A DNA stretch of 64,000 bases from an uncultured Alphaproteobacteria bacterium (GTDB lineage Bacteria; Pseudomonadota; Alphaproteobacteria; Rhizobiales; Aestuariivirgaceae), in contig CALMWF010000040.1 of the NCBI GenBank assembly GCA_937873445.1, positions 62,001 through 126,000 on the forward strand, read 5' to 3'. Shown piece by piece: positions 15,529-18,336 of this stretch; position 1 is the first letter of the stretch, and each line of letters starts with the position of its first letter. A program made the position numbers and the translations under genes. The notes beneath the pieces are model-generated. The model saw only the letters and a program-made list of their open reading frames with translations. It did not search any database and was not told the DNA's origin.

Positions 15529-15548
15529 CATAAACTTATCTTTATATG
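15529..15548 (-). promoter_or_regulatory. SamR/SahR-like operator upstream of the homocysteine methyltransferase
   Basis: On the minus strand it reads CATATAAAGATAAGTTTATG, with inverted ATAAA and TTTAT arms six bases apart. It closely resembles the CATATAAAGATA half of the motif I recall for the ArsR-family SAM/SAH-responsive regulator of alphaproteobacterial methionine-cycle genes. The regulator gene itself was not identified in the window. Confidence 0.6.
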
Positions 15549-15576: not shown

Positions 15577-16350
15577 TTACACGGTTGGCCGCGACAGGAA
15601 CAGGGCGCGCTCCAGCCACACCGCCAGCAGCAGCACCGGCGCCAGCAGCACAGACGTCCACGGGGTGAGGAACCAGCCCGCCAGCAGGAAGCCCGCCAGC
15701 AGCAACAGAATCAGCACGAGATTGCGCTGTTTGGCCAGGGCTGCCGGGGCCTGCCGCCAGCGCCGCCAGGTCAACCCGGCCAATATCGCCAGCAGGGGTG
15801 CGGCCAGCACCACCTGAAACCACGGAAAGCGGCCATGGATGGTGGACACCGCCATGAGCAGGCCGAGGCCGGTCATCAGCCCGGCGCTGGTGAAGTGGGC
15901 AATGTCGAGGGCGCGGCGGCTTCCCGCAAAAATCAATCCGGTGAGCAGCACCAGCGCAGCACCGAGGACGAAGATGAGCAGACCGAGGGGCAGGATGAGA
16001 TGGGGGGAGCCGCCCTTGCCCGACCATTCCTGCACATAGAGAATGCCCGCCACCAGGGCTGACAGCACGGCAAAGCGCATGAAGCGGGTGGCCCTTCCCG
16101 GTGGCCAGCCCAGCAGCATGGCCTGATCGACGGTGCACACGTCCCCCACACAGGCCGGACAGGGCGTGAGGCTGAGGCCCACTGCCGTCAGCAGCAGGGC
16201 AATGGTTCCGCAGCTGTTGGCGAAGGCGGCGGTGGAGGCCACGCCATGGGCCGCACCCACCAGGCCGATGAAGGTCAGCATGCCCTGCCCCGCACCGCCC
16301 AGCACGGTGGCGGCAACGGCGGGTGCATTCAGCGAACGGGTGGTGAGCAT
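15577..16350 (-). CDS. Polytopic membrane protein with CPACVGDVC motif
   Basis: 257 residues; the start at 16350 has AGGA spaced 6 nt away, better than the in-frame TTG/ATG further up. About seven to eight membrane segments are visible, including VLGGAGQGMLTFIGLVGAA, GTIALLLTAVGLSL, HLILPLGLLIFVLGAALVLL and LVLILLLLAGFLLAGWF. Cys residues C47, C64, C67 and C72 (the last three in CPACVGDVC) suggest a redox or metal site. The pattern NAP-x-AGQG at the N-terminus faintly recalls DmsC-type quinol anchors, but the diagnostic DmsC blocks are absent, so I leave it unnamed. It is divergent from a persulfide-sensor-like ArsR regulator, so a sulfur/thiol role is inferred. Confidence 0.75.
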   Translation of the reverse strand: MLTTRSLNAPAVAATVLGGAGQGMLTFIGLVGAAHGVASTAAFANSCGTIALLLTAVGLSLTPCPACVGDVCTVDQAMLLGWPPGRATRFMRFAVLSALVAGILYVQEWSGKGGSPHLILPLGLLIFVLGAALVLLTGLIFAGSRRALDIAHFTSAGLMTGLGLLMAVSTIHGRFPWFQVVLAAPLLAILAGLTWRRWRQAPAALAKQRNLVLILLLLAGFLLAGWFLTPWTSVLLAPVLLLAVWLERALFLSRPTV

Positions 16351-16472
16351 AGCCATTCCTGCTAACAATCCAGTATTTCAATTTCTTGTTTTATCCGAGA
16401 CTTTATCCGGCACAAAGCGGGTTTCGGTGGGGATTACTTGAAATTTCCGCGCTCTACCGCTATGCAGCAGAC
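16351..16472. promoter_or_regulatory. Divergent promoter between membrane protein and ArsR regulator
   Basis: 122 bp, locally A/T-rich at 16366-16400 (AATTTCTTGTTTTATCC) and 16433-16450 (ATTACTTGAAATTTCC). ATTTCAATTTC near 16376 and TTGAAATTTC near 16438 are similar short elements that could be the operator half-sites of the adjacent repressor, but no strict palindrome is present. Confidence 0.4.
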
Positions 16473-16784
16473 ATGGATATCGCCGAACTTCAGGACAATG
16501 CAACGGCGGCCAGCGACCTTCTGAAGGTGATGGCCAATGAAAGCCGGCTGCTGATTCTCTGCAATCTCATCGGTGGCGAAAAGTCGGTGAACGAGCTGGA
16601 AAGTCTGGTGGGCCTGCGCCAGTCCGCCCTGTCGCAGCATCTGGCTGTGCTGCGCCGCGAGCGGCTGGTGAAAACCCGGCGCGAAGCCCAGTTCATCTAT
16701 TACTCACTCGACAGCCATGAGGCCAAGACCATCATGGCCGCCCTGCACCAGGTGTTCTGCCAGCACAAGCCGGCCTGCGGCTGA
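16473..16784 (+). CDS. ArsR-family repressor, BigR/SqrR-like persulfide sensor
   Basis: 103 residues from the ATG at 16473; upstream in-frame residues are not family-like. It is a winged-helix ArsR protein: VMANESRLLILCNLIGGEKS, then the recognition region RQSALSQHLAVLRRERLV and the wing KTRREAQFIYYSL. Two cysteines, C30 (RLLILC) and C96 (HQVFC), are 66 residues apart. That equals the spacing of the dithiol pair of BigR and SqrR, which form a tetrasulfide bridge with persulfides and leave DNA. C102 is extra. The probable target is the divergent CPACVGDVC membrane gene and itself. Confidence 0.88.
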   Translation: MDIAELQDNATAASDLLKVMANESRLLILCNLIGGEKSVNELESLVGLRQSALSQHLAVLRRERLVKTRREAQFIYYSLDSHEAKTIMAALHQVFCQHKPACG

Positions 16785-16857: not shown

Positions 16858-18336
16858 ATGCGCGACTGGCTGGTTCATATCAAACGCAGCGATCACTTCA
16901 GTCTGCAGACGCAGATTCGCGAGGCGCTGGTGGCGGCCATTCTCGACCGCCAGCTTGACCGCGAGGAACCCATTCCCTCAACCCGCAAGATGGCCAAATC
17001 GCTGGGTGTGTCGCGCAATACGGTGGTGCTGGCCTATCAGGGCCTTCTGGATGACGGCTATCTCGTGGCGCGGGAGCGGTCCGGCTATTATGTCTCCGAC
17101 AAGGCGCTGGAAGGGGTGCCCGCCCCGCGCAAGGCGAAGCCCGCCGCCGCCGCCCCGCAGCTGCCCGGTCTGGACTGGGCACGGCGGCTGAAAACCCATG
17201 TTGCCGCCAAGCCGGTGCCCGACAAGCCGTCGGACTGGCAGTCCTATCCCTATCCCTTTCTCTATGGCCAGGTGGACCACACGCTGTTTCCCCTGGCCGA
17301 GTGGCGCGACTGCGCCCGCCAGGCCCTGTCGAAGAAATGGATCGGCGCCTGGACCAATGACACCTGGGCGCTGGATGACCCGCTGCTGGTGGAACAGATC
17401 CGCCGCCGCATTCTGCCGCGCCGGGGCATCATGGCCAATGACAGCGAAATCCTCATCACGCTGGGGGCCCAGCAGGGGCTTCATCTGCTGGCCGAACTGC
17501 TGGTGGACGCTGGCACGCGGGTGGCCATCGAGGAGCCGGGCTATCCCGATGCACGCAACATCTTTGGTCAGAACACGGATCATCTGGTGCTGGTGAAGGT
17601 GGATGAAAAGGGCCTGCCGCCCGATCCGGCACTGGACAGCGCCGACATCATCTATGTGACGCCGAGCCACCAGTTTCCCACCACCGTCACCATGCCGCTG
17701 GAACGGCGGCTGGAGCTCTTGCGTCAGGCGAGCCGGGCCAATGCCGTCATCATCGAGGATGATTACGAGTTCGAGACCAATTATGTGAACGAGCCGTGCC
17801 CGGCGCTGAAGTCGCTCGATGACGAGGGCCGCGTCATCTATGTCGGCTCCTTTTCCAAGACGCTGTTTCCGGGCCTGCGGCTCGGTTTCATGGTGGGGCC
17901 GGAGGCGCTCATTGCCGAAGCCCGCGCCCTCAGGCGGCTGATGGTGCGCCACGCCCCCAACAACAACCAGCGCATGGCGGCCCTGTTCCTCTCCCTCGGC
18001 CACCACGACATGCTGATCCGCCGCCTGCACCGGGCCTATCGCGAGCGCTGGGAGATCATGGGCCGGGCGCTGGAAACGCACCTGCCCAATTCCTCGCGCA
18101 TTCCCTCCTTCGGCGGCACCAGCTTCTGGGTGAGGGGGCCGGCGGGACTGGACAGCGGCGCGCTGGCGCGGGCGGCGCGCGACAAGGGCATACTGATCGA
18201 GCCGGGACAGATCTATTTCGGCGGCACGGAACGGCCCAGCCATTATTTCCGCCTGGCCTTTTCCTCCATCAACGAAAGCAAGATCGAAGCCGGGATCCAG
18301 CTTCTGGCCGAAACCATCCGCGCCGGTGGCGCATGA
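16858..18336 (+). CDS. MocR-family (GntR-aminotransferase) transcription regulator
   Basis: 492 residues from the ATG at 16858, preceded by TTGGAG. The N-terminal GntR winged helix (about 15-80: PIPSTRKMAKSLGVSRNTVVLAYQ) is joined by a basic/Ala-Pro linker to a type I aminotransferase domain. The PLP lysine is K334 in YVGSFSKTLFPG. LITLGAQQGLHLLAELL and IIEDDYEFE match the fold. Such regulators sense amino compounds or pyridoxal phosphate. The next gene, a DMT-type exporter, starts in its stop codon, so the regulated compound is probably transported by it; the identity is not visible. Confidence 0.93.
   Translation: MRDWLVHIKRSDHFSLQTQIREALVAAILDRQLDREEPIPSTRKMAKSLGVSRNTVVLAYQGLLDDGYLVARERSGYYVSDKALEGVPAPRKAKPAAAAPQLPGLDWARRLKTHVAAKPVPDKPSDWQSYPYPFLYGQVDHTLFPLAEWRDCARQALSKKWIGAWTNDTWALDDPLLVEQIRRRILPRRGIMANDSEILITLGAQQGLHLLAELLVDAGTRVAIEEPGYPDARNIFGQNTDHLVLVKVDEKGLPPDPALDSADIIYVTPSHQFPTTVTMPLERRLELLRQASRANAVIIEDDYEFETNYVNEPCPALKSLDDEGRVIYVGSFSKTLFPGLRLGFMVGPEALIAEARALRRLMVRHAPNNNQRMAALFLSLGHHDMLIRRLHRAYRERWEIMGRALETHLPNSSRIPSFGGTSFWVRGPAGLDSGALARAARDKGILIEPGQIYFGGTERPSHYFRLAFSSINESKIEAGIQLLAETIRAGGA

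Follow-up and report, generated by a model that had tools for sequence, protein, structure and literature searches.

One of the closest described systems comes from Hyphomicrobium, for which the available portions of two papers report that shdrR and soxT1A, the gene of a sulfur importer, are transcribed in opposite directions, that SoxR represses until sulfane sulfur bridges its sensing cysteines (PMC10451225), and that SoxT1B has a proposed signalling role (PMC11582611). A comparable arrangement was found in a 64,000-nucleotide stretch of DNA (hereafter the window) from an uncultured alphaproteobacterium of the Aestuariivirgaceae. There, the genes for a membrane protein (P0001, 15577..16350, minus strand, ATG start, 257 aa) and an ArsR-type repressor (P0002, 16473..16784, plus strand, 103 aa) diverge from a 122 bp intergenic region (16351..16472), at the places and in the orientation given by the original prediction. 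Like the shdrR-soxT1A pair of Hyphomicrobium denitrificans, this locus sets a persulfide-type repressor opposite a membrane protein gene, and in both cases the membrane protein has three conserved cysteines and the genome carries sHdr genes. Unlike SoxT1A, which is a YeeE-family importer encoded inside the sox-shdr region, P0001 has no YeeE/SoxT match (PF04143, Pfam comparison) and lies on another contig than the shdr genes.

The best structure matches of P0002 were HlyU (4k2e, E 9.6e-26) and an ArsR protein (6o8l/13ct, E 3.6e-23; the record states only the ArsR family, and we take the protein to be SqrR), followed by BigR (3pqj, E 3.4e-18) and YgaV (3cuo, E 9.1e-18). Its cysteines C30 and C96 are separated by 66 residues (C102 is a third cysteine), and since the pair aligns with cysteines of HlyU (4k2e) and of 6o8l, this spacing, which had been singled out beforehand as that of BigR and SqrR, is not due to chance. 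The pair is kept in a 95% orthologue from a related species (G032) and in a 70% homologue (G024) that lies two genes from an SQR-like gene, in a genome without P0001. Judged by these matches and the cysteine pair, P0002 belongs to the SqrR/BigR persulfide-sensor subfamily, as had been proposed, without being BigR itself (its best NCBIfam score, 95 bits for BigR, stays below the cut-off of 155). With SqrR, BigR, SoxR, sHdrR, YgaV and HlyU it has in common the winged-helix ArsR architecture and the 66-residue cysteine spacing, and its genome likewise has sulfur-oxidation genes, with exact SqrR boxes at the soe and lipS promoters. It departs from the subfamily, besides the low BigR score, in lacking an exact box in the adjacent intergenic region and in having a SoeC derivative (rather than SQR, PDO or YeeE) as its neighbour. 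P0002 is the only regulator of its type detected in the genome, the other ArsR match being weak (E 2.3e-7) and located by an ACR3 arsenite transporter gene.

The membrane protein had been considered unassignable, which holds at the level of family cut-offs (nothing above cut-off in Pfam and NCBIfam, and no DmsC PF04976 match for either P0001 or its orthologue, against 73 bits for the genome's own SoeC) and fails overall. That SoeC, a DmsC-family anchor, is the only other match of P0001 within its own genome, and the matches recovered from the genus, where fetched and mapped, are SoeC or SoeC derivatives. Compared by hhalign with a profile of 19 SoeCs (SoeC calls of less than 300 aa, attributable to contig ends or to the starts chosen by the gene caller, having been excluded), P0001 matched at 99.4% (E 4.2e-21, 36% identity over 226 columns, residues 13-253), and a SoeC HMM gave it 70.2 bits, with 10.9 as the best of 1000 shuffles and 7.8 as the best of 1000 block shuffles. 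On account of this profile match and an HMM score far above the shuffles, it is well supported at the sequence level that P0001 is a SoeC, strongly altered but recognisable along almost all of its sequence (SoeC is the NrfD/DmsC-like quinone anchor of the sulfite dehydrogenase SoeABC); we hold with high confidence the identity of both proteins, P0001 as a SoeC derivative and P0002 as a SqrR-type regulator. The P0001 branch was too long for placement in trees. The structure prediction that had been suggested together with the HMM search yielded an AlphaFold2 model (two-sequence input, pLDDT 51) with eight long helices plus a short one of four residues. The model is too weak for fold matching, and no PDB fold was matched at E <= 0.001.

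Set against SoeC, P0001 is homologous over residues 13-253 and retains the membrane core, while some 40 residues are missing between helices 6 and 7, the loop between helices 4 and 5 is shorter and the C-terminal tail is gone. His65, Ser82 and Glu87 are among the SoeC quinone-site residues named in the available part of a review of NrfD-like subunits (PMC8076601); His, Ser and Glu at the corresponding spacing occur in all 29 full-length SoeCs and in neither of the two P0001 sequences. What P0001 has in addition is the motif CPACVGDVC (residues 64-72, codons at window positions 16135-16161). All four cysteines listed in the original prediction (C47, C64, C67, C72) are present, and C64, C67 and C72 are kept in the sole orthologue (G032, 70% identical to P0001), whereas C47 is not.

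With eight helices, all the lost loops and the tail would fall on the N-terminal side of the membrane. Because this side carries seven Lys/Arg residues and the other two (helix ends taken from the pLDDT 51 model), it is predicted to be cytoplasmic, and the lost loops are predicted to belong to the side that SoeB would touch. CPACVGxxC lies on the same predicted cytoplasmic side, immediately ahead of where SoeC has its quinone loop. Given that the quinone residues and the SoeB-facing loops are lost and CPACVGxxC is gained, P0001 is unlikely to serve as an anchor of SoeAB, and no SoeA or SoeB genes stand beside it. By descent it belongs to a known sulfur family, yet it does not pass the tests for a working SoeC. 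The location of the CXXC, and the descent from a quinone-reactive subunit, fit a quinone-linked thiol/persulfide oxidoreductase, in which the NrfD-like fold would bind quinone and CPAC would pass electrons from thiols to it, as in DsbB or VKOR; as P0001 lacks SoeC's quinone-site His, Ser and Glu and has no match to the DsbB and VKOR families in Pfam and NCBIfam, we regard such an activity as improbable.

The history of the locus was approached by mapping the window genes on 19 loci fetched from genus relatives. Two landmarks frame the slot: the gene of a homocysteine S-methyltransferase (BHMT here; PF02574, 14498..15508, minus strand) and that of a MocR-type regulator (GntR domain plus aminotransferase domain, 16858..18336, plus strand). 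The order BHMT, soeC, soeB, soeA and then MocR, divergent from soeA, was found in 12 of the 19 loci (with 59 to about 2860 bp between the BHMT and soeC matches), whereas in the window and in the corresponding locus of the related species (L032, G032) BHMT is followed by P0001 (at a distance of 68 bp in the window) and then by the divergent P0002 and MocR. Of the seven remaining loci, four keep both landmarks but no soeABC between them (L156, L157, L158 and L167, the last with a trimmed SoeC derivative in the slot), one stops short of MocR (L159) and two carry soeABC elsewhere (L165, L166). Eleven further loci (L168 to L178), several of them cut by contig ends, were mapped as well: BHMT occurs with soeC in L169 to L172 and soeCBA with MocR in L178; soeABC lies elsewhere in L173 to L175; and L168, L176 and L177 hold only a derivative, only a P0002-like gene and only BHMT, respectively. 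From the gene order of the relatives, P0001 occupies the old soeC slot and P0002 stands where soeA and soeB were.

Although soeA and soeB are gone from the slot in the window, a complete soeABC is located elsewhere in the genome, surrounded by the sHdr locus and pst/pho genes (by pst/pho genes in G032). In the SoeA tree (midpoint root, no outgroup) the copies of both species fall among the genus copies. The relocated operon encodes a molybdopterin oxidoreductase (A), a 4Fe-4S protein (B) and a DmsC-family subunit (C); no NCBIfam model matched the A subunit above cut-off, and the name SoeABC is our reading from gene arrangement and general knowledge, another DmsC-anchored molybdoenzyme being conceivable. 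In the relatives' loci L149-L155 and L160-L164, soeCBA is divergent from MocR, mostly followed by EamA and then by alanine-dehydrogenase-like genes where the stretch reaches that far; this cluster is possibly a taurine/sulfonate module.

An operon of P0001 with BHMT was considered and set aside, as in both species a conserved block of its own and a near-palindrome lie upstream of BHMT. This near-palindrome (CATAAACTTATCTTTATATG, window positions 15529-15548, between P0001 and BHMT) is largely kept in L032 and looks like an operator of the methionine-cycle gene, with a resemblance to SahR-type sites.

P0001 was found in two related species only (the window's own, G000, and G032). No further orthologue was detected in 69 genomes of the family, nor any beyond these two species in 397 genomes of the order (E <= 1e-10), 385 of the class (1e-9) or 398 of the phylum (1e-8); these sets overlap, and the order, class and phylum searches scored at most six candidate places per genome. 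A scan of genome contigs, which finds close relatives only, gave a single match, the G032 contig. The expectation that homologues would have a BigR-like neighbour is borne out to the extent that the regulator also adjoins the sole orthologue found. For P0001, the two species give an omega of 0.315 (dS 0.73, bootstrap 0.23-0.44), as compared with 0.139 for SoeC, 0.132 for BHMT and 0.048 for P0002 (an EamA row with wrong coordinates was excluded from this comparison). P0001 is therefore under purifying selection, with a constraint relaxed relative to SoeC (omega about twice as high). Among five segments of the protein, the Cys loop has the lowest omega, 0.18 (a point estimate without range, from 33 codons, with 25 of the 33 residues identical).

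These values bear on the strongest rival explanation, in which P0001 is a slowly decaying soeC remnant without a sulfur role, its cysteines being accidental and its adjacency to the regulator a coincidence. In favour of this, P0001 lies in the soeC slot with soeAB gone, its omega is about twice that of SoeC and no operator box lies beside it. Trimmed SoeC derivatives also exist in two other genomes: one of about 238 aa in G003 (L168 8325-9056, plus strand), from which the HLG motif and the loop between helices 6 and 7 are gone, and one of about 184 aa in G023 (L167 2195-2839, minus strand), from which the first two helices are gone. The Cys motif is absent from both, and therefore trimming can occur without it. 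Against decay, the reading frame is open over its full length in both species at a dS of 0.73, omega is 0.315 with a bootstrap upper bound of 0.44, and the Cys loop is the lowest-omega segment (again a point estimate from 33 codons); overall we consider it rather doubtful. The two derivatives suggest that the survival of SoeC without its partners happened more than once. The one in G023, in the BHMT-MocR slot, adjoins a gene that by eye resembles a metallo-beta-lactamase-fold protein. More generally, the same-slot comparison across relatives shows how a respiratory membrane subunit can outlive its enzyme, with the loops of one face going (as in P0001 against SoeC) and the membrane core staying under selection. 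Among the matches listed from the open-licence literature, none describes an isolated SoeC of this type.

The sulfur gene content of the genome gives the pair its context. One locus of G000, read as an sHdr-LbpA locus, holds genes for HdrB-like (CCG), 4Fe-4S, flavoprotein, GcvH-like, DsrE and TusA proteins. It also encodes a lipoyl synthase of the LipS1 type (scoring 186 bits against a cut-off of 230) and two transporters of the SulP type (one of the two tested), and includes a lipoate ligase-like gene. The locus was also seen (L115, L076; G000:C41:52000-88000) to contain rhodanese-like genes, a FadL-like protein gene and the soeABC-like operon, and it adjoins what looks like a hydrogenase operon. 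In a search for sHdrB2 (the HdrB-like protein, E <= 1e-80), two of 37 genus genomes were positive, G000 and G032, that is, the carriers of P0001; this co-occurrence in two species may represent one evolutionary event. By the same kind of census, PF04143 (YeeE/SoxT) occurs in 16 of the 37 genomes (E <= 1e-8), the SQR-like protein of G024 (the SQR type common in the genus, and the one searched for) in 15 (E <= 1e-60) and SoxY in one (E <= 1e-5), G000 and G032 being in none of these groups.

A thiol or sulfane-sulfur role of P0001 is tentatively favoured here because its cysteines lie on the predicted cytoplasmic face, a sensor stands beside it and it is restricted to species with sHdr, and we would call such a function possible, well short of probable. 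The weak point is that the three cysteines are conserved between only two sequences, at 70% identity. In a lineage without detected YeeE/SoxT, SoxY or the genus-common SQR type, the P0001-P0002 pair is a concrete candidate. The more specific proposal that P0001 is a stand-alone membrane relay or importer of sulfane sulfur, which would replace YeeE/SoxT and use CPACVGxxC for the hand-over to sHdr and the sensor, seems unlikely.

Alternatively, P0001 could be a membrane partner of P0002, binding it or loading it with sulfur at the membrane and so signalling extracellular sulfur, in the manner of the signalling role proposed for SoxT1B in the available text of PMC11582611. The divergent pair is kept in both species, neither of which has a PF04143 match (E <= 1e-8) where 16 of 37 genus genomes have one; such an absence is frequent among the genus genomes (21 of 37), and G024 has a P0002 homologue (70%) but no P0001. 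We think little of its chances.

Regulatory sites were examined in the intergenic region and at the sulfur genes. Within 16351..16472 the blocks GATTACTTGAA(A/T)TTT and TACCGCTATGCAGCAGAC are conserved with the relative. TTGAAA-N17-TATGCA (16438-16466), which ends 6 nt before the ATG, is read as the putative P0002 promoter; a consensus scan did not return it. The deduced SqrR site is ATTC-N8-GAAT in the accessible part of PMC9774250. No exact copy is present in 16351-16472, where the best site has two of eight positions mismatched (three in the relative); with 112 two-mismatch sites in the window, it is at about chance level. One exact copy, within a gene, occurs in the 64-kb window, where 0.58 would be expected. 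Two occur in about 36 kb of sHdr/soe sequence from G000, before soeA and before lipS, and G032 has exact boxes at the same two places, with a changed spacer at lipS and one spacer base changed at soeA. These boxes were first spotted while reading alignments, the motif itself being from the literature. No exact motif was found upstream of soeA in 15 stretches taken from relatives, near-sites with one or two mismatches occur at the two DsrE-like promoters, and the 18-mers common to 16351-16472 and the sHdr/soe promoters were no better than in shuffles.

As exact boxes stand at soeA and lipS in both species and none in 16351-16472, P0002 is a good candidate trans regulator of soe and lipS, and we lean towards the view that it controls soe and lip in trans. 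Control of P0001 itself by P0002 is a possibility suggested by their divergent arrangement. The original idea of a new persulfide-induced sulfur membrane protein holds as regards the sulfur context (sHdr, soeABC); the protein is a remodelled SoeC instead, and its promoter region has no exact box.

We reason that soeA and soeB would have been lost at the old soeCBA-BHMT locus, with soeC left there and a complete soeABC elsewhere. P0002 would be a sulfane-sulfur-responsive repressor, most likely of soeABC and lipS in trans, that lets go of DNA when sulfur bridges C30 and C96. P0001, expressed with or under P0002, would most likely have taken on work with thiols or sulfane sulfur as a small membrane protein acting on the cytoplasmic side; it might, for instance, accept imported sulfur and hand it on to TusA/DsrE or P0002. 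Taken whole (a recruited SoeC derivative beside a persulfide sensor, and trans-repression of sulfur oxidation), this best explanation is one on which we would judge the balance to be even.

In G000, the lpl-lipS region contains a palindrome (GTCCTTATGGAC, L115 9652-9663) in addition to the SqrR box; this palindrome lies inside a block conserved with G032, in which one palindrome base differs.
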